In this document: in pieces, positions 1,051-63,474 of the stretch
Position numbering within the stretch: the first letter of the stretch is position 1
How the letters are laid out: each line of letters begins with the position of its first letter
NCBI GenBank assembly: GCA_030765065.1
Contig: CM060983.1
Coordinates: forward strand, 53,566,067 to 53,630,066
DNA from: Deroplatys truncata
Lineage: Eukaryota; Arthropoda; Insecta; Mantodea; Mantidae
DNA length: 64,000 bases
Reading direction: 5' to 3'
Position numbers and translations under genes: made by a program
The notes under the pieces: model-generated
Seen by the model: only the letters and a program-made list of their open reading frames with translations
What the model was told of the DNA's origin: nothing
Database searches by the model: none

Positions 1051-2381
1051 TTCTACTTTCTCTACCACGTACATATTTGGGGGTCCCTGAATACAAATAA
1101 AGCATTTTTGGAAACATGTGTGTCTGTGAACAGTATAGCACAAAAACGAAAAGTCGGATAAATATCAAACTTGGTATTCAAGTTCAGTATCTTCCAAGAA
1201 CGCGACACGAAGATTTGTAAGAAAATTCCCCTACTCTAACTACCCTTTACATGGAACATTTCTCAAAAATTTTGATTTTCTGAAAATCGGCTCTAACAAT
1301 TTTGCTTAAAATACCATATATTAAAGATACTTACATAACAAATAAAACGTATATTATCTTGAATTTTCTGGGAATAGCCTGTGAAGTCCTCTTCATTCGG
1401 AAGGAATTTTGTATAATCTTGTATAACTGGTAAACGTTAAGCGATAAATGAAAATGTACTGCACACGAAATGTAGACCTCTTTAAAACACACGATTTATC
1501 TCAGATAAGCTTTTTTGTGGCATAAGCCATTTCTGAGATATCCGTTATTAAAAGTTCGAATTGTTCATTACTTGGTCATTCTCTGTTTCTGCAAAGGTTT
1601 ATTTGGATTCAAACGTAGTAGATAGAAAAATAAGGTTTAGTAAGAATAGTTGTATACTCACTAATAGAGGTAGAGGGTAAAAAATCTGATGTGTTACACT
1701 CACATGACTTTCTCTACTCTTGTACAATCTAATTTTACAAACGCTTATTCTCCATATGGTTCATGTTAATCGAGATATCGAGATGTCAATCTTATTGGTA
1801 ATTTTCTTGTAGATGCAAGGGAAATATGGTAGCTTTTAAGCGATAGTCAAATATTTTAACGCTGGTTGCTATGTGGCGCATTCCATTCTCTTTGCATGTC
1901 CAGGACATAAAAAAAATGAATAACGAATGTGAGAAAAAGTACAAGTATTGGAAAATTTAAGGGAATAACAAGCAATATCTCGAAAACGGTTCACTCAACA
2001 AAAGAAATGTATATGACATAAGTTGTGTATTTTAACGCGATCTACATTTTTTGTGTAGTAAAATTTTGTCTATCTCTTATGGTTTACCAGTTATGCAAAA
2101 GTCGTTCACAATGAAGAATACTTTTGGAGACATTCCCAGAAAATTCGAGATATACATTTCATTTCTCATGACATTATCTTAAACATATGATATTTTCATC
2201 AAAATCGTTAGAGCCATTTTTGAGAAAATTAAAATTTTCGAAAAATCTTCCATGTAAAGGGTAGTCTGGGGTGGGGGGATTTTCTTGAAAACCTTCGTGT
2301 CGCATCTCTGGAAGATACTGAACCTAAATACCAAGTTTGGTGCTTATCCGACTGTTCGTTTTTGAGTTATGCTGTTCACAG

Positions 2382-2412
<31 letters not shown>

Positions 2413-2625
2413 TACACACACACAGACACACAGACACACACACAGACACACACACGGACATGTTTCCAAAAATGCTTTTTTTGGATTCAGGAGGTCTCAA
2501 AACATGTATTTCCGGTGAAATCTCGGTATCGAATTTTTGGGTGGAATGCAATACTTCCCCTACTTACTATACGTAGTAGAGAAAGTAAAAAGGTCATGTG
2601 AAGTATCGCGTCAGATTTTTTTTTA
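1051..2625 (+). mobile_element. HINE-like element, old subfamily, interrupted by a younger copy
   Basis: The left end reads ACTTTCTCTACCACG and the body matches the family landmarks: AACAGTATAGC, AAGTCGGATAAA, then the conserved TTTGCTTAAAATACC block. The right end is split. Its left part ends near 1677 in GGTAGAGGGTA. The rest, AAGGTCATGTG...GCGTCAGATTTT, resumes after 2591. The young copy therefore inserted within the right subterminal repeat. Hairpin-end features (CATGTG then a CA-rich return arm) follow the break. This copy belongs to the diverged subfamily also seen at 42.4, 53.3 and 55.0 kb. Confidence 0.75.
1679..2591 (-). mobile_element. HINE-like element, young complete copy, nested
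   Basis: The copy is complete from the hairpin end (AATCTGATGTGTTACACT at left) to the opposite end (ACGTAGTAGAGAAAGTAAAA at right). ACTTTCTCTACT occurs 25-35 bp from the left end and its inverse closes the right end. A CA/GACA microsatellite lies at about 2382-2458. The sequence is nearly identical to copies at 21.97, 31.13, 39.0 and 58.5 kb, so insertion was recent. It lies inside the older copy 1051-2625. No protein-coding capacity is seen; the element would be non-autonomous. Confidence 0.8.
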
Positions 2626-2679
2626 GTTCTTCCTGTGTATGGGGTTTGCTGCATATACTTATTTTTTACGTGATCAGCG

Positions 2680-2985
2680 TCAGATAGATTTCTATAAATT
2701 GGATTTTGCGAAATGGCAATGATAGAGTAATTCACCCACACTTAATATTATTCTCTGACGAAGCATGGTTCCATTAAATGGAGTTCCATCGTAAAATAAG
2801 AGATACTGAAGCACAGAGAAACCCCGTTTTACACACGATATTCCCTTGTATGTCGCGGAAATTAGTGTGTTGTGTGCAGTAAATGCATAGTAATAGCGCC
2901 TATATTTTCTGAAGAAATAATAAATTCAGATAGGTATACGAATGCCTTATCCATACCTTTTTTGAACAGCTGGCCGATGTTAAAT
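2680..2985 (+). pseudogene. IS630/Tc1/mariner-type transposase relic
   Basis: Two stretches resemble a widespread arthropod DDE transposase. At about 2751 the translation gives FSDEAWFH, where the D is a likely catalytic Asp. At 2893-2937 it gives IAPIFSEEIINSDRY, matching the GPIFFEETINSxRY segment of that family. The two lie in different frames, with frameshifts and stops between, so the copy is dead. No terminal inverted repeats were found. The right side runs into SINE sequence. Confidence 0.6.
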
Positions 2986-3009: not shown

Positions 3010-3235
3010 ACTTTTGTTGGAAAGGTAGAGTCAAACGCCAAATTCAATGCCTTAGCAGGGATTTGAACATCGGATCTCCCAGTCTCCGTCCGGTTGCTCT
3101 AACCATTGAGCTACCATGGCAACATGCCGACACGACATTAAATTCTCCAACTGATTCGCATTTTTCCCTGTAAACCACAAGGAGATCTCAAATTGTATTG
3201 AGATGGCATACCCCAATGGCGACTTACAATGCTGT
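3010..3235 (-). mobile_element. tRNA-derived SINE (family B), minus-strand arm
   Basis: On the minus strand it reads GCCATGGTAGCTCAATGG (A-box-like) and about 45 bp later GATGTTCAAATCCC (B box), typical of a tRNA-derived Pol III promoter. The tRNA-like part lies near 3057-3125. About 100 bp of conserved sequence precedes it (towards 3230), which is unusual because tRNA heads normally sit at the 5' end. The same unit occurs in opposite orientation at 3325-3570 and, more diverged, at 48.6-48.8 kb. Confidence 0.65.
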
Positions 3236-4246: not shown

Positions 4247-5010
4247 ATTTTTACTTTCTCTACTACGTATAGTAAGTAGGGGAAGTATTGTATTACACCC
4301 AAAAATTCGATACCGAGATTTCACCGGAAATATATGTTTTGAGACCCCCTGAATCCAAAAAAAGCATTTTTGGAAACATGTCCGTGTGTGTGTCTGTCTG
4401 TGGGTGTGTCTATGAACAGCATAACTCAGAAACGAACAGTCGGATAAACACCAAACTTGGTATTTAGGTTCAGTATCTTCCAGAAATGCAACACGAAGGC
4501 TTTCAAGAAAATCCCCCACCGCAGAACATTTTCGAAAAATTTAATTTTCTCAAAAATGGCTCTAACGATTTTGATTAAAATATCATATGTTTAAGATATT
4601 TTCATGACAAATGAAATGTATATCTCGAATTTTCTGGGAATGTCTCCAAAAGTGTTCTTCATTGTGAACGGCTTTTGCATAACTGGTAAACCATAGGAGA
4701 TAGACAAACTTTTACTACACAAAAAATGTAGATCGCGTTAAAATACACAATTTATGTCATATACATTTTTGTTGTTGAGTGAACCGTTTTCGAGATATTG
4801 ATTGTAATTGCCTTCAATTTTACAATACTTATACTTTTTCTCAAATTCGTTATTCATTTTAAAGCCTAGCAATTCCCCTTGCATCTACAAGAAAATTAGC
4901 AATAAGATTAACATCTCGATTAACATGAAGCATATGCAGAATAAGCGTTTGTAAAAATAGGTTGTACAAGAGTAGAGAAAGCCATGTGAGTGTAACACAT
5001 CAGATTTTTT
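4247..5010 (+). mobile_element. HINE-like element, complete short copy
   Basis: It begins TTTTTACTTTCTCTACTACG and ends at the hairpin terminus CATGTGAGTGTAACACATCAGATTTTTT. The microsatellite is a short interrupted TGTG/TCTG run at about 4383-4417. It is about 764 bp, shorter than young copies because part of the right half is missing around AAGCCTAGCAATTCCCC. Both subterminal repeats are intact. Confidence 0.78.
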
Positions 5011-5021
5011 CTCCTTTACTT

Positions 5022-5480
5022 TTATCTGTATTTAGAGTAATAGTCGAATGGGAATCCTATAGTGGTTCACCTTTCAAAGTAGACAAGACAGTACTTATTT
5101 TCGCTCGCAAGCCGAATATAAAGAGAATTAATCTGCAACACATTTTGCGGCACTGTTATGAAATGCGAAGTATTATAACACGACATTGTAAAATTTCCCC
5201 TCACGCCGCAGATGATGGCAATTGGTACGTTTTCAGCAGGGAGCAATGCGACCACCATTGGAAACTTGATTTCCCAAGTGACAATCTAACATCCTATGTC
5301 TTCTATCACTGTATGTGAGTAATAAACCCACACTGGTTAGTTGTCATCCTAATTTCTCTACGTTCATAATGACATACCCATTACAGTTACAGAATTTAGG
5401 ATGGAAATCTTATATTCACATTAGGTGCGTGCGTGAATACGTTTGTCATATTTCGGAAGACTGAAAGAAAAACAATTATG
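5022..5480. other. Unassigned DNA with one small open frame
   Basis: A plus-strand frame entering from the HINE-like end stays open to about 5318. The part outside the repeat includes HILRHCYEMRSIITRHCK and HWKLDFPSDNLTSYVF. I recognise no family, and the apparent start codon lies within the repeat. It could be a relic exon or chance. Confidence 0.3.
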
Positions 5481-6890
5481 ATCCGTTATATTCTCTTGGC
5501 TTTCTCAACTCGCTCTTGTACAAACTATTCTTTAAAAGCTTATTCTTTTAGCTAATTCTTGTTAATGTAGATAACGTTTCAATTCACATTTACACTTTCG
5601 TTGTACGATAGAGTATGTAAAGCGATAGTCAGATTTTTAAAGCTTTCTCTACTCTTGTACAAACGCTTATTCTCCATATTCTTCGTGTTAATCGAGATAT
5701 CGAGATGTCAATCTCATTGCTAATTTTCTTGTAGATGCAAGGGGAATATGGTAGGCTTTATGCGATAGTCAAATATTTTAAGAGCTGGTTGCTATGTGGA
5801 GTATTCCATTCTCTTTGCATTGCCAGGAAAAAAAAGAATAACGAATTCCCATTTGAGAAAAAGTATAAGTATTTGAAAATTTAAGGGAATAACAAGCAAT
5901 ATCTCGAAAATGGTTCACTCAACAAAATCAATGTATATGACATAAATTATTTATTTTAACGCGATCTACATTTTTCGTGTAGTAAAATTTTGTATATCTC
6001 TTATGCAAAAGTGGTTCACAATGAAGAATACTTTTGGAGACATTCCCAGAAAATTCAAGATATACATTTTATTTGTCATGAAAGTATCTTAAATATATGA
6101 TATTTTAATCAAAATCGTTAGAGCCATTTAAAATTTTCTCAAAATATTCCATGTAAAGGATAATCTGGGGTGGGGGGATTTTCTTGAAAACCTTCGTGTC
6201 GCATCTCTGGAAGATATTCAACCTAAATATCAAGTTTGGTGTTTATCCGACTGCTCGTTTCTGAGTTATACTGTTCACAGACAGACAGACACAGACGGAT
6301 ATGTTTCCAAAAATGCTTGTTTTGGATTCAGGGGGTCTCAAAACATGTATTTCCGGTGAAATCTCGGTATCGAATTTTTGGGTGGAATGCAATACTTCCC
6401 CTACTTACTCTACGTAGTAGAGAAAGTAAAAAACGAATGACTTCCCAGTTGAGAAAAGTATAAGTATTTGAAAAGTCAAACAAATACAAGGAATATCTCG
6501 GAAATAGTTATCTCCACAAAAAACTATATGGCATAGATTGTGTGCTTTAACGAGATCTACATTTTATGTAGATCTAGTAACATTTTGACCATGCCTTATG
6601 GTTTACCAATTATACAAAGTCATTCAGAGTTGAGAACTTCGCATGTTATTCCCAGAAAATGCCGAAGATACTTTTAATCTGTAATGGAAGTGCTTTAAAA
6701 ATATGGTTTTTTAATTAAAATCGTTAGAGCCATTTTTGAGAAAAAGAAAAAAACTGAAAAATGTTCCATGTAAAGGGGTGGGGTGGGGATGTTTTCTTGC
6801 ACATCTTCCTGGCGCATTTTTAGAAGATAGTGAGCTTAAATACCAAGTTTGATATTTATCGAACTCTTCTTTTTTGAGTTCTGCTGCACA

Positions 6891-6926
<36 letters not shown>

Positions 6927-7057
6927 CACGCTTGCTAAAATGCTTTTTGGGGTTCAGGGAGCCACAAATAATGTATTTTAGGTGAAATCTCGATCGATTT
7001 TTGGGTGGGATGCAACGTTTTCTTACGTTAAGTAACGTAATAAGAAAGAAGAATGTA
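5480..7057 (-). mobile_element. HINE-like element, old copy split by a younger one
   Basis: The left piece (5480-5640) carries a decayed hairpin end and subterminal repeat (GGCTTTCTCAACTCGCTCTTG). The right piece (6432-7057) continues from CTTCCCAGTTGAGAAAAG through a CA run at about 6893-6920 to a degraded terminus GTAATAAGAAAGAAGAATG. The two pieces join in the expected order around the young insertion, apart from some tens of bases lost at the junction. Confidence 0.65.
5641..6431 (-). mobile_element. HINE-like element, younger copy nested in an old copy
   Basis: It starts directly at the inner subterminal repeat (GCTTTCTCTACTCTTGTAC), so its outer hairpin end is missing. It finishes with the intact opposite end CTACGTAGTAGAGAAAGTAAAA. 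The microsatellite is reduced to a few CAGA units near 6281. Confidence 0.7.
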
Positions 7058-10127: not shown

Positions 10128-10134
10128 ATGCACT

Positions 10135-10148
10135 TCCTTCCTTCTTTC

Positions 10149-10211
<63 letters not shown>

Positions 10212-10232
10212 TATTTCTTTCTTTCTTTCTTT
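10135..10232. repeat. CTTT tetranucleotide microsatellite
   Basis: About 24 near-perfect CTTT units, with one A substitution near 10213. The F/L/S-rich frame here is an artefact. Confidence 0.95.
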
Positions 10233-13935: not shown

Positions 13936-13939
13936 TTCC

Positions 13940-14365
13940 CTTACCTGAAAGTTTTTCATTAGCTTGTTTTATTTTCTCAAATTATTTCTAACGATGTTCA
14001 TTAAAATACACATTAATTGACTTATCTGCACAATGAATAAGGTATAGGTATATCTCGAATTTTCTATGAATAGCCTGTAAAATTATCTTCATTTTTACTG
14101 AAATTTGTATTAGTGGGAAACTGTAAGATATACACAGAGACTTACTGCATGGAAAATGCATAGCTCATTAAAACACGCAATTTATATCATATTGCCAAGC
14201 AGGGGTCTTCGGAAGTGGTGTAGGTGTGAAGGACGAAATGTATGGGGGCATCTCATATTCTCGGTGTCATGTTCATTGGCTAAGAACAACCACACCACAC
14301 CACACCACATAGCGTTGTACATTAATGAAAACATGTGAAATGTAACACGTCATGATTTTCTCTCC
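13940..14365 (+). mobile_element. HINE-like element, decayed partial copy
   Basis: It matches the family interior from ATTTCTAACGATGTTCATT through ATATCTCGAATTTTCTATG to AACACGCAATTTATATCATA. It ends with a degraded hairpin terminus (ATGTGAAATGTAACACGTCATG). About 120 unrelated bases with a CACAC/CCACA run sit near 14205-14330. The left end with its subterminal repeat is absent. Confidence 0.55.
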
Positions 14366-14782
14366 TCAGAGATACCTAACCTTTAACAGTATACTCTTCA
14401 CACACAATGCCATTCTATTCACTCCACCTTATTTACGATAAATCCTAGAAATGCTTTCATATCACGGAAAATGTAGAAAAAAACACTTAGCAATCTACAT
14501 CACAAGTTCAGTTTTATCAGTAATAAACTGAAACACGAAACAGAAGAATTTTAAAACGCAGATGGTACATCAGACAAACGTTTACTTGGGAAAGGTTAAA
14601 TATACAGCAATGCATATTTCGGAAATGGCTAATGCTGGGAAAAGGCAATTTAATATAACTGTGTTTTAAGAGCTCTTATTTTTTCTGCGATACGTTTCTG
14701 CATATCTTTTACGTTTCTCACTTATATAAAATTCAGTAAGAACGAAGAGGGATTTTATAGGCTGTTCACGGAAAACTCGAGA

Positions 14783-16010
14783 TATATAGCGACTTTAGAA
14801 AGCACTCGTCTTCAATTTCAAAACATATGTCAGCAGTCAAATTAAGGAAGAGAAACATTTGATTTTTAATGTACAGAAAGAACAAACTATATTACAGTTT
14901 ACGTCCCCTTGCATATTTTTTTAAGGTTTTGCACTTTATTAGTTTTATAATTTTTTTGAAATTCCACAGATTTATTTTTGTGTATACTAGTTACAAAATT
15001 ATAAATATTGCATACATTTAATGCAACAATTTTGGTGTAGTAACTCAGATTTCGGTGAAAATAATATTGCGAAGAAACCAAGTGTAGTGGTCAGGAATTA
15101 TCAATGTTTTTACTGAACTTACAGATTAACGCCTAAATTTTTAGAAAAGCATAAATTTATTTCTCCTTCAGTTTAAATAATTTGTCGTTCGTATTACCGG
15201 GTGCTGAATAAAATGCTCTATTAAGCGCATATAAAGCAATTTTGTAAACATCACAAATGAAAAGTTTGAAAAAGCAGTGCAATTTTCGAAAGAAAATACG
15301 AAAAATCCTTAAAAACGTAAGAACACGTAAACTGCAATATTGTTAGCTCTCTCTGCATATTAAAATGAGAATTTCCTTTCCGTTAATTTGGTTAGAATTT
15401 TTATTTTCTCTACTACGTATAGTAAGTAGGGGAAGTATTGCATTCCACCCAAAAATTCGATACCGAGATTCACTGGTAATACACGTTTTGAGGCACCGTG
15501 AATTCAAAAACAAGCATTTTTAGAAAAAGGTCTGTGTCTGTGAACAGCATAAATGAAAAGTCGGATAAATACAAAATTTGACATTTGAGTTTAGTATCTT
15601 TCAAAGATGCGACACGAAGATTCCCTTTACATGGTACATTTTTCGAAAAATTAGATTTTCTCAAAAATGGCTGTAACGATTTTGATTAAAATATCATATG
15701 TTTAAGATACTTTCATGGCAAATGAAATGTATATCTTGAATTTTCTGGAAATGTCCCCAAAAGTCCTCTTTATTCTGAATGGATTTTGCATAACTGATAA
15801 ACCGTAAGAGATAGACAAACGTTTACTACACAAAAAATGTAGATCTCGTTAAAACACACAATTGATGTTATATACATTCTTTTCTGGAGTGAGCCATTTT
15901 CGAGATATTCCATGTTATTTGTTTGAATTTTCAGCCTACCACATTCCCCTTCTAATTATAAGATGTAACACATCAGATTTTTTAAAAATGTACTTCTGTG
16001 AATATCTCGA
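14783..16010. mobile_element. Foldback MITE, copy 2, interrupted by a HINE-like copy
   Basis: The left arm (about 14783-14960: GAAAGCACTCGTCTTCAA, GTCAAATTAAGGAAG, TATTACAGTTTACG) pairs with a right arm at about 15290-15398 (ACACGTAAACTGCAATATTG, CCGTTAATTTGG). It is the same family as 11116-11782. The right arm breaks off at AGAATTTTT, where the HINE-like copy 15398-15982 begins. The first bases after that copy (TTTAAAAATGTACTTCTG) resemble the expected continuation of the arm. Outer limits are approximate. Confidence 0.55.
15398..15982 (+). mobile_element. HINE-like element with internal deletion, nested in a MITE
   Basis: The left end is TTTTTATTTTCTCTACTACG and the right end is GATGTAACACATCAGATTTTTT. 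About 105 bp that normally precede the hairpin, including the right subterminal repeat, are missing between CATTCCCCTT and AGATGTAACAC. The microsatellite is almost absent (GTCTGTGTCTG). Confidence 0.7.
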
Positions 16011-17186
16011 ATGTATATAATCATTTGAAACAATTTTGAGTAAAAAAGCTGAATAAACTGCAAAATTTGTCTTCAAGGAGTACATTATACACGTTAAAAT
16101 CGGTTATTTGCCCAAATTTGAAAATCACCAGGACAGTTTATTATACGTACGAAAGGATAAATAAGTTCTATTAAATCTTCATGTGGATACAGAACCTGTA
16201 ACAACAATAACATAAATTCGTAACATGCATTAAAGTTGAAGCAAACCGATGTGATTGTTGGTAATCGAGATTAATCACGACCTTTATTGCCTTTACAGGT
16301 GCTTCTACGCAAGAAGTACTTTTTGAAAATATCTTGCACAAATGGTTTGTTTCGTATATTAATCATGGCATGCTTTCGTAACATAGTACCATACTCTGGA
16401 TATGACTTGCCTTCATTAATATTTTCCAAAGTGCTGTTGTTGAATTGACAAAACTTGTGGACCACACTTTTCACAAAGCAGCTGTTTTCGTCACTTTCAC
16501 TGAAGAGTACGAATATAGCATATGAGCTTAAGATCTCTGTGAAACTCACTAGCGAAATCCTTGCCTATACTAGACTTTCGTGCTGTATTGTCACTTAAGT
16601 TTCGAACAAACACGATTTCATCACAGGATGTGGCATTGCTATCACTGGATCTTTGCACATTTTTCTACACTTACACTTTTAAACAGTAATTTGTTTCCAA
16701 CTTTGAGCTAATTGCTTCCTTTCTGTGTTCTTTGTCCCGTTTAAATATCTTATTTGTTTAAACTCATCACACAAAATCCTCCAGTGAACGAAACACAGCA
16801 GTCAAGTATATCAAGCAAGAACTGACAGACCAAGGTAGACATATTATTTTCCTGGAACTTTTAGCTGATCAAAGCACATACAGCACAGCGATCAACGAAG
16901 GCAACAGTAGGGTTTATCCTTGAATTTACAAGCCAGGCATTAACATATTTTTTCTTGGAACTGAATCGGAGCTGTAACATCTGTATACTCACCTCCAAGG
17001 ATAGACAGAGTGAGGTTATTGACCCAATCGTAGTAAAATAAAAGGAAAAGAGAAAGTGTTTGCATTACTATTTTCATCAAAGATGCAATAATAATTAATG
17101 ATACTTCAACGTACACAAACTGCAGTGAGGATGCACAAAATATCTCGGTTGCATTTAAGTATTTATATAAAAGTTCTAAAAGTAAA
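16011..17186. other. Unassigned DNA
   Basis: A minus-strand frame of 92 codons at 16271-16549 (MSFTEILSSYAIFVLF..., CKGNKGRD end) has no recognisable domain. Nothing else is supported. Confidence 0.4.
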
Positions 17187-18046: not shown

Positions 18047-18101
18047 AATCTGATGTGATGTATTCATACAACTGCATCTACCAATGACAATTCACACATA
18101 T

Positions 18102-18385
18102 TATTAAATTAAATTGAGTTTTATTTATGGACGCTCTTTAACTACTATGGTTCTTAGCGCCCCATTCTATATTGGGCGTGAAAGACCGGTAATTTTGCAC
18201 AGAGGCCTCTTTATCAGGCTTGAGGTTGTTTTACATGCCGTAAATCAACGAAGGAAGCCATGCTAAGGATTTTTACGCCCGAAAAAGTCCATCGCCCTCC
18301 ACCGGGTTTGAACCCGCAACCTCGGGAATTAAAGACTAGCATGGTACTACTACAGAGTCTACTCCTTGGGCCACGGAGGACGACA
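18102..18385 (-). mobile_element. tRNA-derived SINE (family A), copy 1
   Basis: The tRNA-like head is at the right: on the minus strand GTCGTCCTCCGTGG, and the B box GGTTCAAACCCG near 18305. The tail at left reads CATAAATAAAACTC. About 40 bp of the body found in the other copies are absent near 18243. A 9-bp target duplication CACACATAT lies at about 18093-18101 and 18386-18394. The A box is eroded in this copy. Confidence 0.8.
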
Positions 18386-38366: not shown

Positions 38367-38369
38367 AAG

Positions 38370-43264: not shown

Positions 43265-43299
43265 GGAGTATAGTTTCTATAAATTATGCTTGTAAAATT

Positions 43300-46978: not shown

Positions 46979-48267
46979 CGAGGGCTGTCCCAGAAGTACC
47001 CTAATAAAGAAAACACAAACATTTTGGGAAAAAATATCTTTATTTCTCTATATAGTCTCCTTTCAGCTCGATACACTTTTCCCAGGGATGTTCAATAGCT
47101 TCGATACCCTGTTTATAGTGAGAACCGTCGAGTTCTGCAAAATAGCCATCAACTACAAACTCCACCTCTTTATTGTTGGCAAATCTTTTACCACCAAGCA
47201 ATTTCCTCAACTTTGGAAACAGAAAATAATCAGAGGGGGCTAAGTCTGGCGAATAGGGTGCGTGAGGAAGCAATTCGAACTTCAACTCGTTGAATTTGGC
47301 CATGGCGATAATGGATGTGTGAACTGATGCATTGTCTTTATGAAACAGAACTTTCTTTTTCGCTAAATGCGGCCGTTTTTACTTGGTTTCACCATTCAAA
47401 CGCTGAAATAAGTTTGCATAATACTCGCCCATTGATTGCTTTTCCTTTTTTAAGACAATCAATGAAAACTATCCCACGTGATCCCAAAAAACTGACGCCA
47501 TGACCTTGCCTGCAGATGGAACTGTCTTCGCCTTCTTTGGAGCCGATTCTCCCCTTTCAATCCACTGTTTTGACTGTCCCTTTATCTCAGGTGTGAAGTG
47601 ATGGACCCATGTTTCATCCATGGTTATGGATCGACGCAAAAACTCGGCTTTATTGCAGCGAAACATCGCCAAACACTCGACTGAAACATCCTCACGACGC
47701 TGCTTTTGTTCCATTGTGAGTAAACGCGGCACCCATCTTGCAAATAGCTTTCTCGTGTCTAAATTTTCAGTTAGTGTGCAATGTACAACACTTTTTGAAA
47801 TGCGTACGGTGCCTGCTAGCTCGCGCACTTTCAGTCGACGGTCATCCAATACCATTTTGTGAATGATCCTCACAATTTCTGGCGTGGTCACATCATTTGG
47901 TCGACCGCTGCGATGTTCGTCTTGGCAGCTCATACGGCCTCGCTTAAATTGTGCCACCCAATATTTTACTTTTGTAAACGAAGGAGCAGACTCCCCCAGA
48001 GTAGAATCTAGCTCAGCTTTAATATTAGTTGGACTAAGACCTTTCAAATGAAAGTATTGTATCACATACCGATGACCAGTTTTATCCATGTTTACAAATT
48101 CGCTGAGAGAGTTCACTGTTAATGGCTGCCAAACAATTACTAATCAACGTACCATCATCATACTTCAAACTTAAGCTTTATAAGGGCGATACTTTCTACT
48201 ATAGTCATTTGTTAGAAACAAAACCGCTGCATATACGTCAGGTCAGGTACTTCTGGAACTACCCTCG
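46979..48267 (-). mobile_element. Mariner element, nearly full length (lineage 2)
   Basis: At 1,289 bp it has the normal length for mariner. The inverted ends CGAGGGCTGTCCCAGAAGTA and CGAGGGTAGTTCCAGAAGTA sit between TA dinucleotides at 46977-46978 and 48268-48269. It carries one broken transposase gene on the minus strand. Confidence 0.88.
47040..48090 (-). pseudogene. Mariner transposase (DD34D), frameshifted
   Basis: Likely start MDKTGHRYVIQYFHLKGLSP (about 48088). The N-terminal half has helix-turn-helix regions (FTKVKYWVAQFKRGRMSCQD, VRELAGTVRISKSVVH) and TMDETWVHHF with the first Asp. The frame stops after VFWDHVG near 47469; the next frame gives MGEYYANLFQRLNGETK then a stop. The third part reads HKDNASVHTS and YSPDLAPSDYFLFPKL, with 34 residues between the second and third Asp, ending KGDYIEK. 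All three catalytic residues remain, so one frameshift and one nonsense change account for most of the loss. Confidence 0.85.
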
Positions 48268-49093: not shown

Positions 49094-49685
49094 TGTATTA
49101 CTTTCTCTACTACGTATAGTAGTTATTGCATTCCACCCAAAAATTTATATTGACATTTCATACTAAATACGCGTTTTGAGAGCCCCTGAGAAGGAAATGA
49201 ACTTTTGGAAAAAGGCCCATGTTATTATGTATGGTGTAGGTGTATGTGTGTCTATCTGTCTGTGAATAACATAACTCAAAAACAAAAAGTCGGATTAATA
49301 CTAAACTTGGCATTTAAGTACAGTATGTTCCAAAAATGCGATACGAAGATTTTCAAGAAAATTAAGAAAATCTTCCACACCAATCTCAATATTTTTGTTT
49401 TTATTAAACATTTCTCTAACGATTCAGATTAAAATATTATAATTTAATATATATATAATAAGTAAAATGTGTAACTTGAATTTCTGGTATAGCCTGTGAA
49501 GTCCACTTCATCGGGAAGGAATTTTGTATAATTCTGTGTAACGTGTAAACATAAGAAATGGACAAAAAGGTACTACACAAACAATGTATATCTCTTTAAA
49601 ACATACAATTATTTGCAATTACTTTTTTATGGCATCATCCACTTCCGAGATATCCGTTATTATTGTTTAATGCTGTAATTAGTGA
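49094..49685 (+). mobile_element. HINE-like element, left two-thirds
   Basis: Left end TATTACTTTCTCTACTACG. It follows the old-subfamily interior (GTGAATAACATAACTCAAAA, AAGTCCACTTCATCGGGAAG) and stops after TTCCGAGATATCCGTTATTA, before the right subterminal repeat and hairpin. Confidence 0.68.
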
Positions 49686-50584: not shown

Positions 50585-51636
50585 ATGAAGGCCAGTAAGC
50601 AGGAACAACGAGGAGTGATTCGATTTTTAGCGGCGGAGGGAGTTGGAGGCCGTGAAATGTATCGACGTATGAAGGCTGTGTACAGTGAGTACAGTCTGTG
50701 TCGTTCAAGCGTGGTGGAATGACGCAAAAGATTCCTTGAAGGGCGCGAATTACTGGAAGACAGCGTTCGTCCTGGACAGGCTCATCGTGTCATCACAGCT
50801 GAAATTATTGCGGAAATGAATGCTTTAGTATTGGGCAACCGAGAATCACCGTGGACGAGATCCACCGATTACTGGGTACTAGCGTAGGCACCATTCACAC
50901 CATAATGCATCAACACCTGAAATTTGGAAAAGTTTGCGGCAGTGGTCTCCCCACCAACTGACCGCTGAACTGAACAGCGCAATACTCGAATGGCGCTGTC
51001 TTTGAGTCGTCTGCAACGATAGCATGAGGAGGAATACGGTTTTCTGTCGCATATTGTCACAGGTGTCGAAACATGGTGTCACCATTTTGAACCGGAAAGC
51101 AAGCTTCAGAGCAAGTAGTGGAAACATGCGACTTCACCGCTTCCGAAGAATTCAAAGGCCGTGCACACCAGTTCTGGTAAGGTCATTATGTCCTTTTTTG
51201 ACCACAAGGGCCCACTGCTTGTCGAGTTCCTGGAACGGGGAACCACCATCAGTGTCCAGCGTTATCAAGCCGCTTTACAGAACCTTAGACGAGCTATCAA
51301 GTCGAAACACCCAGGAATATTATCCAATGACGTTATTCTCCTGCATGATAATGCCCGCCCACACACTGCCAATGCGGTGAAGACGAATTGCAGCAGTTTC
51401 TATGGGAAATGCTGGAAAATCCACCGCACAGTCCAGACCTTTCACCTTGTGAAATTCATGTTTATGGACCTCTACAACAAGCTATTCGCAGACATCGATT
51501 CACAACGGACGACGAGGTGTGTGAATGGGTCCAGGCCTGGATCCAACAGCAGCCTACTAGCTTCTTCAAAGATGGAATCGACCGGAAAGTGTCGCAATGG
51601 GATAAATATGCCAACAGTTTTGGCGACTATTTTTGA
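50585..51636 (+). pseudogene. Mariner transposase (DD34D), inactive
   Basis: The frame from 50585 reads MKASKQEQRGVIRFLAAEGV, then EMYRRMKAVYSEYS, with a stop at 50720 where Trp is expected. Later segments, in changing frames, are RKRFLEGRELLEDSVRPGQA, VDEIHRLLGTSVGTIHTIMH, GVETWCHHFEPESK, FLERGTTISVQRYQAALQNL, HDNARPHTANAV, HSPDLSPCEIHVYGPLQQAI and the end SQWDKYANSFGDYF. The first catalytic Asp is Val (GTC at 51065-51067) and the third is Glu (GAA at 51451-51453), so catalysis is lost apart from the frame breaks. Confidence 0.88.
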
Positions 51637-51640
51637 GTTA

Positions 51641-52550
51641 TGAGGCAGTATTTTATATCACAACACTGTAAATGCCAGAGGTAATGTAGTGTAAATTAGG
51701 ATTATTGTATGACAATGATTTGAGATGTTTGTTAACTATAAGCATTGTTAGGAAATAAGTTTACACGGCCTCACTGAAATTGACAATAGGAGCGGGTAAC
51801 AATGTAGCGAGGGGGTGAGTTGTTTATTAATTAGAAGAGACAAGCAAATGACGTCAGAGTAGCGCGCTTTTCTTTAGAAATGGAGGGAATATTTTCCCTA
51901 GAGCATATGTGTTCGTAATTTTGATTGGATATAAAAATAGACGCTAATGTTGGCACGCTTTATTAACCAATAGCAGTTCTGTTATAATGTTTAGTCATAT
52001 CGGGGTGAGGGAGTATAAATTCTAAAGCCAGAGACAAGTGTTGCCCAGTTCAACAGAATCATTCGCGGGTTACACGTCGCCCAGTTCAAGAGAATCATTC
52101 ACGGGTTACACGTCGCACAGTTCAACAGAATCATTCACGCGTTACACGTCACACAGTTTAAGAGAATCATCCACGGGTTACATGTCGCACAGTTCCACAG
52201 AATCCCTCGCTTCGTAAAGTTAGTTACAAAAATGTGAAATACGCGAATTAATAATGCGCGGCAAATAAGTGATTATAGTTACATTCGAAAATATAACAGT
52301 TCCAGTCAGGCGTGTATCAAGAGTAAATATGTGAAATTAATGAAGTTTGACGGCAATAAAAGTGTAAAAACAAATTCTTTTATCAGTGTTATCTTTTAGT
52401 AACAACTCCTTTCCGTTTACACACCCTGTTCAAGAGATTTACTCGATTGAGTAATAGTAGCTAGCCGGAGGACAAAGAATCCAAAATTCAAAAATAGTAA
52501 AACAATAACAGGCGCTCAGAAAATAAGATAACACGAAAGTAGCCGCGACA
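51641..52550 (+). mobile_element. Fossil solo LTR inside a mariner
   Basis: About 910 bp beginning TGAGGCAGTATTTTATATC and ending GAAAGTAGCCGCGACA, inserted just after the mariner stop codon. A short GTTA-type duplication flanks it imperfectly. A TATA-type box (GGGAGTATAAATTC near 52009) and AATAAAAGTG near 52356 mark promoter and polyadenylation regions. The start matches the LTRs at 35.3 and 41.6-42.3 kb, but the remainder differs, so it is a related subfamily. No internal region remains. Confidence 0.7.
52043..52209 (+). repeat. 36-bp tandem repeat within the solo LTR
   Basis: Nearly five units of a 36-bp sequence starting GCCCAGTTCAACAGAATCAT and ending GGTTACACGTC, with a few differences between units. 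They lie downstream of the TATA-type box, in the part of the LTR that would be transcribed. Confidence 0.85.
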
Positions 52551-52879
52551 GTTTATAAAATCGTTACCATTATTTTACACAAGTGACCGGGTTTCATTTG
52601 AATGACCCTTATAGTTTCATTCTTTACCTTCAAACGTTCGCAACTCGCTTTAGTAGCTCAAGTATTAGATCACATTGAACTTCTCAGTCAATTAAAACTG
52701 GTGTTATCCTTTCAAAATACGCCCACGCATTCCGTGAGAGAAGGATGTCATAGCCAACCACTGTAGCACCCGCAAGAGAATCAACAGCTGCTATTGAGGA
52801 ATGGGTGCGGCTTCAGAAATTGACGACCATCGCCCGGCTTCATGTTTTGTATTACTCAATACTTTTGACATTAAGCGTC

Positions 52880-53150
52880 GCTGTTCAGCTGTTTCTCGCG
52901 ATGTCATGGAAAATATATCGAATTTCAAGGCGAGCATATAGGTTCTCACTTTTAAACATCCGACCATCGATTTCGTTTCCCCTATCTCTCTTTATCAACA
53001 ACGAAATGTGTAATGAAACTATTTCTGCAAAGCTTTATCTCAGTTAACATGAAGTGAATAGAAAAATAAGTTTTCGTAATAACAGTTAAGAGAAGCTATA
53101 CAAAGTAAACAAGTGGGTAGAGAAAGTCATGTAAATGAAATACATCAGCC
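52880..53150 (+). mobile_element. HINE-like element, right-end fragment, old subfamily
   Basis: It matches the old-subfamily right third (GTTTCTCGCGATGTCATGG, CTATTTCTGCAAAGC, AGTGGGTAGAGAAAGTCATG) and ends near AAATGAAATACATCAG. The left two-thirds are absent. Confidence 0.65.
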
Positions 53151-53284
53151 TCTTTATGTTTGTAGCTATGGATTAGGAAAAATATATACACTTTAAATGA
53201 ATTCAAGAGTCCTCTTCTTTTTTAAATTAAAAATCTAGTTAGGTAAAATAATTGTTACCACACAGGTTCATGTTACTGATTAAT

Positions 53285-54622
53285 AATTTTCACTTTCTCT
53301 ACCACGTACATAGTATTTAGAGAGGTCCACTAACAAATTCGATACCGATATTTCACTGGAAATACATGTTTTGAGGCCCCCGAATAAAAAAAGCATTTTA
53401 ATAAAATGTCCATGTGTATGTGTGTGTGTGTGTGTGTATGTCTGAGCAGCATGACTATAGAACGAATTCTCGAATAAATACCAAAGTTGCTATTTAAATA
53501 CCACACGAAGCTTTTCAAGAAAATACTCGCCGCCCAAATTAGCTTTACATGAAACTTTTTTCGAAATTGTTTATTTTCTAAAAAATTACCATTATTATGA
53601 TTAAAATACTATTACTACGGATGACAAATAAAATGTGTATCTTGAATTTTCTGGCAATAACCTGTGAAGCCCTCTTCACTTGGAAGGAATTTTGTACAAT
53701 TTTGTATAACTAGTAAACGTTATATACGAAAACGTGCTACACCAAAAGTGCAGTTCTCTTTAAAAATTACACAATCTATTTCAAATAACTTTTGTTATGA
53801 CATAAGCCATTTCCGAGATATTCGTTATTAATGGTTCGTATTGTTCAATACTTAGTCATTCTTGAGCCTGCCGATTTTCAGTTGTTTCTCACGATTGCGT
53901 GGAAAGAGTGTGGAATTTTAAGGCAAACGTACAGCATCCAATCCTAAAACATTTGCTTATCGCTACTCCCTTTGTATCTACAACGAAATGTGTAATACAG
54001 CTATTGTTATACACCGGGGTGAGACCGAAAAGTTTGCAGCTTAAAATTAAGTTTAGTTACCCCGGCATAAACATTGGGGGACGTAGCTCTGAGGCGGCGA
54101 GAGATACCAAGAACTTGCTGCACAAAACTAAAGCGGGCGTGGTATTCTTAGAACATAAAATTACATAAATTCACATTTACCTCTGAGATATTATAGTTAA
54201 CAAGGGCCCTACATTATACACAAAAGGTTACAGACGAACACTGAGGAGATGCCCCACGCACACGCAACCAAACACTCACAAGACCTACACTCGACTGACG
54301 CCACTGGTAACACCAAGCACTTAAACAAGGAGGCTCTTCCCTCAATTGCCTTCACCCTCCCTGACTAGGAATTGGAGGGAATTGCCACGCCGGACAAGAA
54401 TTCAACGTTGCGAACGAAATAATTAGTTCAACAATATATTATACACAGCAATAAAGTGTCCGACCCGACAATGTACACACATACGCTACGCTATTTCTGC
54501 AAAGGTTTATCTTGGTTAAAATTAAGTAGATAGGAAAATAAACTTGCATATGAATAATTTGTATAGACACTACAACGCGATACTGGGTAGAGAAAGTCAT
54601 GTGAATGTAACACAGGGATAGG
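53285..54622 (+). mobile_element. HINE-like element, old subfamily, with an insertion
   Basis: Left end TTTCACTTTCTCTACCACG, a TG microsatellite at about 53408-53440, old-subfamily interior, then an unrelated block at about 54005-54490. The right end resumes GCTATTTCTGCAAAGGTTT and finishes GGTAGAGAAAGTCATGTGAA with TGTAACACAG. Confidence 0.72.
54005..54492. mobile_element. Unclassified insertion, possibly a fossil LTR
   Basis: This block of about 490 bp is absent from other copies of the surrounding element. GCTATT occurs on both sides (about 53999 and 54493), a plausible 6-bp target duplication. The block starts near TGTTATACACCGGGGTGAG and ends near ATGTACACACA, so TG and CA ends are possible, with AATAAAGTG shortly before the right end. 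No coding sequence was seen. Confidence 0.4.
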
Positions 54623-54870: not shown

Positions 54871-55004
54871 AATGGTGGACATTTCACCCTGCGGGCTGAC
54901 CATGTAAAGAATGTACGTGCTGTTAGAATTCGGAGACTTTCTCCTAGTGACAAAGAAAAGGAATTCTTTTTAAGATGATACTCAAAATGGAGAAAAAGTT
55001 TATT

Positions 55005-56642
55005 ATTACTTTTTCTGTTATTTACATATAAAATAGAGGAAGTCGTATTCCATCCAAAAATTCCATATCGAGATTTCCCTGAAACCAGAAAATGCATTTT
55101 TCCTTTCTCTACTACGTATAGTGAGTAGGGGAAGTATTGCATTCCACCAAAAAATTCGATGCCGATTTTTCATATTCATGTTTTGAGGCCCACTGAATAC
55201 AAATGAAGTATTTTTGGAAACATGTCCATATGTGTGTCTGTCTGTGAACAGCATAACTAAAAAACGAAAAGTCGTATACATACCAAACTTGGTATTTGAG
55301 TTAAGTATCTTCCAAGGCGACACGAAGATTTTCCGGAAAATCTCCCCACCCAGACTACCCAGACTAATTTTGATTTTCTCAAAAATGGTTCTAACGATTT
55401 TGTTTAAAATATCATATATTTACGATATTTTTATGCTAAATAAAATGTATATCTTGAATTTTCTGGGAATGTCCCCAAAAGTCCTCTTCATTCTGAATGA
55501 CTTTCGCATAACTGGTAAACCGCAAGAGATAGACAAAATGTTACTACACAAAAAATGTAGATCTCGTTAAAACGCACAATTTACGTGATATAAATTTTGT
55601 CGAGGGTACCATTTCAAGATGTTATTTGTTTGAATTATCCAATACTTATACTTTTTCTCAAATGGCAATTCGCTATTCGTTTTTTTTATGTCCTGGTAAT
55701 ACAAAGAGAATGGAATACTCCACATAGCAACCAGCTCTTAAAAGTTTTGACTGTCGCTTAAAGCCTACCATATTCCCCTTGCACCTACAAGAAAATTAAC
55801 AATAAGATTAACATCTCGATTAACATGAAGCATATGGAGAATAAGCGTTTGTAAAAATAGTTTGTACAAGAGTAGAGAAAGTCTGTGAGTGCAACTCATC
55901 AAATTTTTAGAAAAAAAAGGTTCGTGTGTTAGTGAACAGCATAACGCTAAACGAAAATTCAGCATCTTCCAATGACGCCATGTGAAGATTTTCAAGCAGA
56001 GTTTCCCACCCCAAACTACCCTTTGAATGAAAACCTGTTCATTTCTTTTTCATTTTTTCTAAAATGGCTCTTACAATTTCGTTTAAAATACCACATGTTT
56101 AAGATATTTGGTTCACAAATAAAGTGTATTCCTAATAAAATGTGTATTTCGAATTTTCTGGGAATAGCCTGTGAAGTCCTCTTCATTCGGAAGGAATTTT
56201 GTATAATCTTGTGTAACTGGTAAACGTAAAGCGATAGACGAAAACGTTACAAAATATTTAGATCTCTTTAAAACACATAATTTATTACAACTAACTTTGT
56301 TTGTAGCATCAGCCATTTCCGAAATAATCGTTATTAATGGGTCCATTTGTTCATAATTTTGTTATTCTTTTAAGTCCCATCGATTTTCAGTTGTTACTCG
56401 CGATTGCATGGAAAGAATATGGAATTTGAAGGCCAGCATATAGTGACCAGTTGTTAAAAATTTGACTATCACTGTTCTCAATGTATCTATAATGAAATGT
56501 ATAATGCAGCTATTTCTGCAAAGATTTATCTGGATTAAAATGTATTAGATAGAAAAATAAACTGTAAGAATAATTTGTATACCAACTAATAAACAAGAGA
56601 GGGTAGAGAAAGTCATGTGAATAAAACGCATCAGAGTTTTGC
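55005..56642 (+). mobile_element. HINE-like element, old subfamily, split by a younger copy
   Basis: The left part (55005-55097) ends GAAACCAGAAAATGCATTTT. After the younger copy the sequence resumes AGAAAAAAAAGGTTCGTGTG, which in uninterrupted copies follows CATTTTTAGAAA directly. It continues through the old-subfamily right half to GGTAGAGAAAGTCATGTGAA and CGCATCAGAGTTTT. The junction shows the target was a T-run. Confidence 0.75.
55098..55907 (+). mobile_element. HINE-like element, younger copy nested in an old one
   Basis: Left end CCTTTCTCTACTACGTATAG, right end GAGTAGAGAAAGTCTGTGAG then CATCAAATTTTT. Both subterminal repeats are present. The microsatellite is short (TGTGTGTCTGTCTG). 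It lies in the same orientation as its host copy. Confidence 0.78.
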
Positions 56643-58476: not shown

Positions 58477-59370
58477 ATTTTTACTTTCTCTACTACGTAT
58501 AGTAAGTAGGGGAAGTATTGCATTCCACCCAAAAATTCGATACCGAGATTTCACCGGAAATAAACGTTTTGAGACCTCCTGAATCCAAAAAAAGCATTTT
58601 TGGAAACATGTCCGTGTGTGTGTCTGTGTGTGTGTGTCTGTGTGTGTGTCTGTGTGTGTGTCTGTGTGTCTGTGAACAGCATAACTCAAAAACGAACAGT
58701 CGGATAAACACCAAACTTGGTATTTACGTTCAGTATCTTCCAGAGATGCGACACGAAGGTTCTCAAGAAAATCCCCCCACCCCAGACTACCCTTTACATG
58801 GAACATTTTTCGAAAATTTTAATTTTCTCAAAAATGGCTCTAACGATTTTGATGAAAATATCATATGTTTAAGATAATGTCATGAGAAATGAAATGTATA
58901 TCTCGAATTTTCTGGGAATGTCTCCAAAAGTATTCTTCATTATGAACGACTTTTGCATAACTGGTAAACCATAAGAGATAGACAAAATTTTACTACACAA
59001 AAAATGTAGATCGCGTTAAAATACACAATTTATATCATATACATTTTTTTTGTTGAGTGAACCGTTTTCGAGATATTGCTAGTTATTTCCTTAAATTTTC
59101 CAATACTTATACTTTTTCTCAAATTCGTTATTCATTTTTTTATGTCCTGGACATGCAAAGAGAATGGAATGCGCCACATAGCAACCAGCGATAAAATATT
59201 TGACCATCGCTTAAAAGCTACCATATTCCCCTTGCATCTACAAGAAAATTACAAATAAGATTGACATCTCGATATCTCGATTAACATAAAGCATATGGAG
59301 AATAGGCGTTTGTAAAAATAGATTGTACAAGAGTAGAGAAAGTCATGTGAGTGTAACACATCAGATTTTT
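58477..59370 (+). mobile_element. HINE-like element, complete young copy
   Basis: Left end ATTTTTACTTTCTCTACTAC, right end GTGTAACACATCAGATTTTT. A TG/TCTG microsatellite lies at 58613-58672. Sequence is close to the copies at 31.1 and 39.0 kb. Confidence 0.82.
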
Positions 59371-59712
59371 TTATCTTGGATATGCAAAGAGTTATAATCT
59401 GTGGCAAAGGGAATGGTGCTGCACCTAGCAACCAGCTATTAAGATATATGTCGATGCTTAAAGGCTTACTGTATTTCTGTATTGCCCTTGCAAATACAAA
59501 ACAAGGAGAACTTAGTAGGCCTTAAGTCATAGTCAAATATTCTTAGAACTAGTCACCATGTTTAAAATGTAATTTTCTTTGCATGTCAAAAGATCGTTTC
59601 TGCAAATATTTATCTCGATTAATATGAAATAGATGAAGAATAAGAGTTTGTAAAAATAGTTTGTATAAGAGTAGAGAAAGTTATGTGAGTGTAACACACC
59701 AGATTTTTATAA
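59371..59712 (+). mobile_element. HINE-like element, right-end fragment, tandem with the previous copy
   Basis: Immediately after the preceding copy the sequence follows the right third of the family again (AGCAACCAGCTATTAAG, AGTAGAGAAAGTTATGTGAG, CACACCAGATTTTT). The two hairpin ends lie about 340 bp apart in the same orientation. Confidence 0.7.
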
Positions 59713-60595: not shown

Positions 60596-60949
60596 CTAGT
60601 TTTATTATCTGTGAATAGGTGGTAAGAATTCGCTTTTATCATATTTTTCATTTTTACTATTGTTTTAGAGTTAAGGCGGAACTTTTGAACGTGGTTTATT
60701 TGAATCTGTTTTAGTTGAAATCACTTATTATGTGTGTATTTGTTATTTTAATACTTTGCACCTTGGTAAGCGTTGAGTACAAATAGCCTTCACTCGAAGA
60801 GGGCAGACGTTTTCAATGAATTCTTTCATCGCAAAATTAAAGTGTGTAAAACTTCAATCTCTGTATTTCTAATTCGACTCCAGAACGAGATATAAACTAT
60901 TTTATTTATAGCCATCATTGGCTATTGTGATCATATTGTGGCAGTTTTT
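60596..60949. other. Unassigned DNA
   Basis: Nothing recognised between the tandem duplication and the LTR-like island. Confidence 0.4.
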
Positions 60950-61502
60950 CGTTGTCCATTACTATTATTGTTAATAATTTCTTTGTTTACGATATCTATC
61001 TGTGGCTCCCCCCTCGGTTTGGGAAATACTGTGACTTTATCCACTTTTTAACGTCACTTCACTTGTTCTTTCTGTCACTTTGTTAATGTGTTCTAGTTCA
61101 CTTCACTTAGTTTTCACCATCACTTCATTTTCTACATGACGTAATGGCGTAACGAAATAGGTACGGCGTAGCCTCCTTGTCCGAACGGTTCACTCCTAGG
61201 GAGTCGAACACAAGACTTCTCAAATATCTCGCGGAAGCAGTACTCACTGCACGTCACAGCAGTCGTCACAAACTCACTTGTAGAACCGCGCTTGAAGTCG
61301 CCGTACTAACTTGAGAGAGCGCTCGATTATATAGCCTTTGGACATATCCACACAGTTCCAGAATGTTCGAGAGGCAGGAAACTTCATAAGGTTCTTGTTA
61401 TCTGACGATAGTACTTCTGGTGTTTACACTTGACGAGCGTGCTGCTTATCTCTGTTTACCTCTCCACTGCCGGAGAGACATTAGGCTATAGCCACTACAT
61501 CA
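60950..61502 (-). mobile_element. Possible fossil LTR, minus orientation
   Basis: The minus strand starts TGTAGTGGCTATAGCC near 61500, has a TATA-type box (GGCTATATAATCGAGCG near 61338) followed 25-30 bp later by an initiator-like CAAGTTAGTACGG, and then a leader-like stretch. This resembles LTR promoter organisation. The 3' end and a target duplication were not established. Confidence 0.4.
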
Positions 61503-62029
61503 TAATATCATAAGAAATAGGCCGAAGTAACTATATTAATTTCATTTCTTCGCTTCTAGATATGTGATAGAATGTGAAACATTTTAAGCCTAAAGCTCGT
61601 CTTGTGCAGTTCATTTCGGCAACGAAATATCTCCATAGTTCTGTAGTTACGCTACACTTGGGCAACAAGAGACATCTAATGAATGGTTCAGGTTTCATTA
61701 TGTGCGCAGCCCCAACAGCAAAAATATGAAATATAAGTTAGTTAAAAAGCAAACACCGGGTCTGTAGCTTTGTTTGGTTCGCAAACAGAACGTGTTAATT
61801 AATAGCCCAGAGGAGGAAGGAGGGGATAGGTGCATGTTTTTGCATCATTAGCGTTTTGGGCGAGTAAATCAGCGATGCAAGAGTATGCGATGTTTCCAAG
61901 ACTTCGTTTGTTCAATACTCATAATTTGAATCTGAAATTTCAGCAATGCGTGCCAGATATATGCATGGTGTTTTGATTTTAAATATGTGAGAGGTGTGTG
62001 TTTGGTAGAACCTTTTCATTAGTCACCAC
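61503..62029. other. Unassigned DNA
   Basis: No supported feature. Confidence 0.4.
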
Positions 62030-63474
62030 TAAAAAAAGCTTTGATGTATTACTTCACAGTACTATCTCTACCCTCTATCGTTAGTGGGTATACAAACTAT
62101 TCTTACGAAAGTTTACTTTTTAATATACTTAATTTTAATCCAAATAAACCTTTGCAGAATAGCTACATTAATCATTTCGTTATAGACACAAAGGGAACAG
62201 CGATAGTCAAATGTTTAAGAACTAGACGCTGGCCTTAAAATTCCATACTCTTTCCATGTAACCCCTAGAAACAACTGCATGTTGAGAGGACTTTAAAAAG
62301 AAGTGGTAATTTCGAAGCATTCATTTCGAACTATTAATAATGGATACCCTTGAAATCCTTATGCCACAAAATTTTATTTAAAAATAAATTGTTTATTTTA
62401 AAGAGATCTAAATGTTTTGTGCTGCACATTTATCGCTTAACGTTTACCATTTATACAGGATTATAAAAGCTTCTTTCCGAATGAGGACAGGCTATTCCCA
62501 TGAAAACTCAAGATATAATTATGTACCTATATTTTACGAGGGGCGTCCAATAAGTAAGTTTCCCTATTTTATAAAGAAAACATTACACACAATTGAACAT
62601 GTTGAATTAATTTTATTTATATTGTACAATCTTCTGTTACTTTTCTATAGTTAACATGCCTTTCCAAGCATTTTTGGGGACGTGACACAAGCTTTTCCAA
62701 GCCAGTGTTGTACCAGGTCGGTCCTGTGCTCGCAACCAGCTGTTCACTGATTTGACTTCATTCGGTGTTAAAAGTGCTTACCTTTGAGTTGGATGAACAT
62801 GTGAAAATCACTTGGGGCAAGCTCCGGTGAATACGGAGGATACGAGAAAACTTCCAAGTTGAATCTTGACCCAGGCGGAGCTCAGAAGAATCAAACTGGG
62901 AAGTTTTCTCGCATCCTCCATATTCACCAGATCTTTTCCCAAGTGATTCTCACATGTCTTCCTGACTCAAAGGTCATCATGGAGGTAAGGCTTGGAAAAA
63001 CTTGTGTCATGTCCCCAAAAATGCTTGAAAAAACATGTTGACTACTGGGAAAAGTAACAGAAGGATTGTACAATATAAATAAAATTAATTGAACATGATC
63101 AATAGTGTGTAATATTTTTTTATAAAACAGGGAAACTTACTTATTGGACGCCCCTCGTGTTTGTCATATGTGTTATGTGTATGGCATTTTAATAAAAATC
63201 GTTAGAGCCATTCTTCAAAGAATCAAACATTTCAAAAGGGTAGTTTGGGGTGGTTGGTTTTCTTGAAAATCTTCGTGTAGCATCTTTGGACTCGAATACC
63301 AAGTTTGGTATTTATCTGGCTTTAGTTTTTGAGTTATGCTGCTCACAGACACACAAATACGCGCGCGCGCGGATCTTTTTCTAAAAATGCCTTTTGGATT
63401 TAGGGGATCTTAAAGCATATATTTCTGGTGAAATCTCGACATCGAATTTTTTTACGTAGTAAAGAAAGTAAAAA
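62030..63474 (-). mobile_element. HINE-like element, old subfamily, with a foldback insertion
   Basis: The hairpin end is eroded (GATGTATTACTTCACAGTAC, then CTATCTCTACCCTCTATCG). The interior runs to CTCAAGATATAATTATG before the foldback and resumes TTTGTCATATGTGTTATGTG after it. The far end is TACGTAGTAAAGAAAGTAAA. A short CGCGCGCG run occurs where the CA microsatellite normally lies (63360). Confidence 0.72.
62537..63157. mobile_element. Palindromic mariner-derived foldback element (lineage 3)
   Basis: The ends CGAGGGGCGTCCAATAAGTA are perfect inverted copies, with TA at the left flank (62535-62536). The two arms, about 350 and 270 bp, are reverse complements over most of their length. Read inward to outward, each arm encodes the same mariner C-terminal piece: YPPYSPELAPSDFHMFIQLK on the minus strand of the left arm and HPPYSPDLFPSDSHM on the plus strand of the right arm. 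The element is thus two mariner 3' ends joined head to head, with no N-terminal part. Confidence 0.8.

Follow-up and report, generated by a model that had tools for sequence, protein, structure and literature searches.

A probable Helentron-associated non-autonomous repeat family, partly nested in its own older copies, in a 64-kb window of the mantis Deroplatys truncata

The stretch analyzed here (the window) comprises 64,000 nucleotides of the genome of the mantis Deroplatys truncata (assembly GCA_030765065.1, contig CM060983.1, positions 53,566,067 to 53,630,066). Much of it is occupied by a single family of interspersed repeats with an element length of ~880 bp, whose copies contain no long open reading frame (ORF). 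The terminal anatomy of the family, T runs at its insertion points, several age classes of copies and younger copies inside older ones can all be read directly in the window. On these features we assign it, with considerable confidence, to the non-autonomous Helentron-associated elements (HINEs) of the DINE-1-like kind. A first-pass annotation made from the letters alone had proposed the same assignment, and we compare each of its main observations with our results below.

The ends of the family stand out clearly from controls. The 12-bp sequence ACTTTCTCTACT has 19 exact matches in the window (100 shuffles averaged 0.00), and when up to two mismatches are allowed, the matches pair in inverted orientation around a unit of 800–900 bp. 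A left-end motif (TTTTACTTTCTCTAC[CT]ACGTA, with at most four substitutions) occurs at 18 places and in none of 10 first-order Markov controls. A right-end motif, consisting of the 3′ subterminal inverted repeat (subTIR) and a hairpin with substitutions allowed, occurs at 15 places, with 0, 2, 0, 0, 0, 0, 0, 0, 0 and 1 matches in 10 Markov controls. Because this motif also matched in controls, the weakest of the right ends, at 14366 (six substitutions), may be a chance match. Together, the 18 left and 15 right motif ends bear out the first-pass description of subterminal repeats inverted at both ends.

BLAST with one copy as the query covered 24.4% of the window, and a profile built on the 10 complete copies (Table 1) gave 45 matches that cover 29.8%: 20 measure 500 bp or more, 7 measure 200–499 bp and 18 are shorter. 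The profile had no match in any of three Markov sequences. The reversed window gave 13 matches, all at model positions 104–204, the microsatellite region (best E value 1.9e-6), and we therefore set aside the match at 928–1013 (model 98–180, E value 2.5e-6), which likewise consists of microsatellite only. The match at 43592–43671 is weak (E value 0.0017). Chained by hand, the remaining matches represent ~30 copies or fragments. The annotated share of about 30% of the window therefore holds, as does the family itself, with the number of copies or fragments put by hand at ~30 rather than the ~25 copies first counted.

At its 5′ end, the consensus reads ATTTTT-ACTTTCTCTACT-ACGTATAGTA-AGTAGGGGAAGT, that is, TTTTT, the 12-bp subTIR ACTTTCTCTACT and, after 10 nt, an inverted repeat, AGTAGGGGAAGT. 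The internal CA/TG microsatellite that had been annotated is present at ~135–182 of the consensus, and the 3′ end is laid out as AGTAGAGAAAGT-CATGTGAGTGTAACACATCAGA-T run. The two 12-bp subTIRs (ACTTTCTCTACT and AGTAGAGAAAGT) are 100% complementary in the copy at 31125–32008. In the consensus, the 5′ subTIR folds with the downstream inverted repeat to form ~15 pairs (z −3.58), so that this end does have a stem of its own, as first noted, which is longer than the small stem then described. Among 17 aligned left ends (14 of them distinct), 92.3% of 208 cells pair in this stem, compared with 45–56% when the two sides are slid. The alignment comprises 14 of the 18 motif left ends and three others, and the ends at 1051, 49096, 53288 and 63473, in which the inverted repeat is unrecognizable, were dropped from it. 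Because of this omission, we also counted pairing over all 21 left ends, dropped ones included; in 15 of these, the 50 nt that follow offer pairing partners for at least 11 of the 12 subTIR bases.

The 3′ hairpin, ATGTG/CACAT, has a 5-bp stem and a 7-nt loop and is separated from the end of T5 by 9 nt. It is present in the aligned right ends between the 3′ subTIR and the terminus, where the first-pass annotation had placed it. Over 16 right ends (14 of the 15 motif ends, with the doubtful 14366 dropped, plus 54586 and 27146), 93.7% of 79 cells pair, compared with 1–58% when slid. The cells include one with changes on both sides and three wobble pairs, and five fail to pair. Folded in isolation, the 3′ stretch shows no unusual stability (z −1.08, with 31 of 200 shuffles as good). 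The same 16 right ends show that the element is asymmetric: the inverted repeat reaches only one of the two termini, and ~22 nt that include the hairpin lie outside the 3′ repeat. Measured to the end of T5, the outer edge of the 3′ subTIR is ~27 nt away and its inner edge ~39 nt.

The copies belong to more than one age class. Eight of the complete copies differ from each other by Kimura two-parameter (K2P) distances of 0.02–0.11, and those beginning at 20308 and 55096 differ by 0.13–0.20 from the other eight and from each other. More divergent copies share 3′ parts that are unlike the main type, yet they keep the 3′ subTIR and the hairpin. Such retention would fit recognition of the ends by the transposition protein.

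T runs border all 10 complete copies. Counted from the flanks, they are 5, 5, 6, 5, 5, 3, 5, 5, 5 and 5 Ts long on the left and 6, 6, 6, 6, 6 (after an extra A), 6, 5, 11, 5 and 7 on the right, which gives at least three on the left and at least five on the right and agrees with the T/A-rich junctions reported in the first pass. At lengths of 3–8, the two flanks of a single copy resemble each other no more than flanks taken from different copies do (10 complete copies; maximum excess 0.9, with 186 of 200 permutations as high). As had been annotated, no target duplication is evident in these copies beyond the T runs themselves, for which an all-T duplication of ~5 would look alike.

Two nested insertions can be read to the base. 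The copy at 55096–55909 splits an older copy, which breaks off at GCATTTTT on the left and continues after TTTTTA on the right; the consensus there is GCATTTTTGGAAAC, and T5 has become T5 + T5. The copy at 58477–59376 lies at the T7 tract (model 646–652) of an older copy, with T5 on its left and T7 on its right. Alignment of its left flank is poor, and the site rests on the right flank and on local flank scores of 39 and 45, judged against 200 shuffles (95% point 34, maximum 41). At both empty sites (T5 and T7), about five Ts were gained, in T runs. A third copy, at 1675–2592, interrupts an inverted older copy in the region of its 3′ subTIR. This placement is supported by E values as low as 1e-30 on one side and 1e-20 on the other; the flank scores of the copy, 40 and 39, are below the shuffled maximum. 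When the joined 250-bp flanks of 11 copies were searched, no repeat outside the family showed an empty site (matches within 260 bp of the copy and above 97% identity excluded).

A copy is found at the internal T7 tract of the family in four places: 58477–59376, 5642–6433, 30128–31012 and 27150–27185. The second has lost its own 3′ end together with part of the target, and the third follows a 5′ half that ends at the T7 tract, with only the left side recognizable. At 27150–27185, a divergent 3′ end is followed by model 651–849 of an older copy, so that only the right side is recognizable (score 91; highest score among shuffles, 59); the two profile matches within 26972–27185 are not collinear. 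Older copies cover 17.6% of the window, and against this coverage 4 of 11 copies with both flanks in an older copy give P = 0.11. Other counts give P = 0.03 (5 of 11), 0.006 (6 of 11) and 0.0009 (7 of 11), the seventh candidate being the copy at 17184, whose flank score of 32 is not above shuffles. The null model ignores any preference for T runs. Part of the clustering of the family is nesting, the strength of which varies with the counting rule. Whether the family in addition carries its own landing pad, with newer copies landing in older ones at T7, building dense nested clusters and raising the regional share of the family, seems to us doubtful. Weighing against it, the 8-T run at model 555–562 shows no insertion in the window, and T-run length alone is therefore not the rule.

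In layout, to which the comparison is confined, the mantis family resembles DINE-1/INE-1 of Drosophila. The parts of PMC4067079 drawn on here give DINE-1 13-bp subTIRs, a 5′ inverted repeat with its 5′ side inside the subTIR and 3–22 bp between its two sides, a 3′ stem loop, a microsatellite, a TT or T-rich target and no coding capacity; the mantis family likewise has subTIRs (12 bp), a 5′ inverted repeat in the subTIR (10 nt apart), a 3′ stem loop, a microsatellite, a T-rich target and no coding capacity. According to the same parts, HINEs lie in T-rich sequence, their terminal Ts vary in number and have an unclear allocation to the ends, and clustering of related insertions is a possible outcome of rolling-circle movement (PMC4067079). 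HINE-Mo of the mite Metaseiulus occidentalis is described there with palindromic subTIRs of 12–15 bp at 38–60 bp from the 3′ end, a 3′ palindrome 8–35 bp from the end, T-rich sites and variable terminal Ts, and our family shares with it the subTIR size, the 3′ palindrome (at 9), the T-rich sites and the variable terminal Ts (PMC4067079). Hel-2 of Lepidoptera, as excerpted from PMC4344730, also has subterminal inverted repeats, a 5′ inverted repeat, a 3′ hairpin and a microsatellite downstream of the 5′ repeat, but it has TC/CTRR ends and a 250-bp consensus in place of T-run ends and ~880 bp. The non-autonomous Helentron elements with satellite-like repeats of Crassostrea gigas, as outlined in the portion of PMC7492417 used here, are likewise invertebrate and carry internal repeats, whereas the internal repeat seen in the mantis family is a TG microsatellite.

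The longest closed stop-to-stop ORF in the window has 235 aa and no Pfam match (ORFs running off the window were not listed). A Pfam scan of 37 of the 74 window ORFs of at least 85 aa found no Rep or helicase family. It returned an RNase H piece and mariner-type pieces (Transposase_1 and HTH_48), together with four matches below the cut-off (HTH_32, DUF6033, DDE_3 and MADF_DNA_bdg). The mariner-type transposase pieces are broken and lie at 47040–48143 (−), with the DDE_3 match at 47040–47378, and at 51119–51643 (+), with the HINE fragment 49094–49666 between them. The RNase H piece, at 26095–26523 (−), is perhaps the end of a non-LTR (long terminal repeat) retrotransposon. Pattern scans with the ends and core of the family gave 0 matches in viral contigs and 0 in bacterial and archaeal genome contigs, and a distant DNA search in plasmids gave no match; these negatives say nothing about the novelty of a eukaryotic-looking repeat. 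Main-text searches for letters of the ends returned four papers each, all unrelated as judged by title, and no transposon paper among the texts searched (figures and supplements aside).

Several results weigh against the HINE assignment. Two-base matches between flanks, taken as the best of all offsets, occur in 3 of 10 copies, with 1.1 expected (a length outside the permutation described above), and an all-T duplication of ~5 is not told apart from Ts carried by the element. The 5′ inverted repeat is unrecognizable in 6 of the 21 left ends (1051, 49096, 53288, 63473, 29530 and 43301), and neither stem shows covariation beyond that of shuffles, of which 141 of 500 and 497 of 500, respectively, scored as high. 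No autonomous Helentron was seen within the 64-kb window among the 37 of 74 ORFs scanned. Unlike those of HINE-Mo, in the excerpt of PMC4067079 considered here, the subTIRs are not palindromic and appear to lie nearer to the 3′ end (outer edge ~27 nt, inner edge ~39 nt, so that the difference depends on how the distance is measured). We nevertheless regard the assignment made in the first pass as supported: the readable features agree with the layout described in the cited parts of PMC4067079 save perhaps for this 3′ subTIR distance, and the family very probably belongs to a known kind whose mechanism is ordinary.

The best surviving rival, which we consider improbable, is a miniature inverted-repeat transposable element (MITE) moved by a DDE transposase, for which TTTTT would be the target duplication and the subTIRs the inverted repeats. 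A 5-bp all-T duplication would fit the borders, where eight of the 10 complete copies have five Ts on the left (the others six and three) and all 10 have at least five on the right, as well as the gain of about five Ts at both readable empty sites, and mariner-type pieces are present in the window. A MITE of this kind is at odds, however, with an inverted repeat that is terminal at one end only and with the separate inverted repeat of the 5′ end. Mariner-type elements duplicate TA, and no pair of motifs (at most two mismatches each) oriented as element ends encloses the mariner-type pieces; a DDE transposase sharing these ends, which the first-pass annotation had named as evidence that would overturn its assignment, is thus not seen in the window.

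A canonical Helitron, with 5′-TC and 3′-CTRR ends and insertion between A and T, would account for a hairpin near the 3′ end and for the absence of a visible duplication, but the ends here are TTTTTAC... and ...CATCAGATTTTT, and the 3′ end of the consensus lacks CTRR, which makes this reading very improbable. Least probable of all is a short interspersed element (SINE) or other retroposed repeat: the family is short, non-coding and present in many copies of several ages, but both of its ends are fixed and bear subterminal inverted repeats, and the sole window match to Rfam that reaches the gathering score, a tRNA at 3048–3120, lies outside the copies.

Table 1 Copies and fragments of the HINE-like family in the window (positions in window coordinates; model, position in the profile)
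Position	Strand	Feature	Remarks
1675–2592	−	Complete young copy	Inside 3′ end of inverted older copy 1049–1674/2593–2622
4247–5014	+	Complete copy, internal deletion of ~74 bp	
17184–18048	−	Complete copy	Directly after sequence ending ACATCAGATTTTTT
20308–21152	−	Complete older copy	83–85% identical to other complete copies
21964–22869	+	Complete copy	
30128–31012	+	Complete copy	
31125–32008	+	Complete copy	97.7% to consensus
39000–39913	−	Complete copy	Adjoins cut-off 3′ region of older copy
55096–55909	+	Complete copy inside older copy	
58477–59376	+	Complete copy at T7 tract of older copy	
42400–43264	+	Older full-length copy (model 8–881)	
1049–1674	+	Older divergent copy, left part, interrupted by 1675–2592	5′ inverted repeat unrecognizable
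2593–2622	+	Hairpin-like and T-run end of older copy 1049–1674	
5470–5642	−	3′ part (model 699–882) of older copy 6430–7042	
5642–6433	−	Copy, 5′ end intact, 3′ end cut after subTIR	At T7 tract (model ~648) of older copy
6430–7042	−	Older copy, 5′ part (model 15–648)	
13938–14193	+	Fragment	
14324–14796	−	Fragment (profile match 14588–14796), doubtful 3′ end near 14366	
15397–15932	+	5′ part of copy	
18666–18970	−	Fragment	
26972–27151	−	Older copy, part after T7 tract (model 651–849)	
27150–27185	−	3′ end of divergent copy at T7 tract of older copy	
29527–30132	+	5′ part (model 2–648), next copy follows directly	
36947–38368	−	Three fragments of one or two old copies (36947–37031, 37571–37875, 38207–38368)	
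39914–40999	−	Older copy (model 3–758 at 40378–40999)	39920–40000 resembles 3′ parts of other divergent copies
43299–43621	+	5′ part of older copy	
49094–49666	+	5′ part of older copy, 5′ inverted repeat lost	
52848–53155	+	3′ part, hairpin pair changed on both sides (ATGTA/TACAT)	
53286–54614	+	Older copy: 53286–53996 and 3′ end 54508–54614	
55004–55095	+	Older copy, 5′ part, interrupted at GCATTTTT	
55910–56641	+	3′ part of older copy, including hairpin and T-rich end	
59367–59711	+	Older copy, 3′ part, inverted piece at 59502–59587	
62034–62517	−	3′ part of older copy	
63179–63584	−	Fragments with 5′ end (63179–63474, 63508–63584), 5′ inverted repeat lost	

The window also holds repeats of other kinds. 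A further interspersed repeat, outside the HINE profile matches, occurs at 33172–33398, 34399–34544, 37918–38134 and ~18103–18298 with 78–93% likeness, and near one of these places lies a tandem array of 33–75 bp units (33515–33846). A 36-bp tandem repeat (4.4 copies, 52046–52204) and a TTCT tetranucleotide tract (24.5 copies, 10134–10232) are present elsewhere. The tRNA match at 3048–3120 is on the minus strand, scores 36 bits and was not called by ARAGORN; it is perhaps a tRNA pseudogene or the head of a SINE.

If the HINE-like family moves as published for its kind, an autonomous Helentron elsewhere in the genome would supply a Rep/helicase/endonuclease protein, and this protein would recognize the ends that the copies share. 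One strand would then be copied by rolling-circle replication, for which the 3′ hairpin may serve as the stop signal, and the copy would be joined into a T tract. The family adds little to the understanding of this mechanism unless its autonomous partner is found. What it offers is a well-preserved HINE-like family in which nesting provides paralogous empty sites within a single window, so that the nested sites give a direct view of insertion into T runs and of the gain of Ts.

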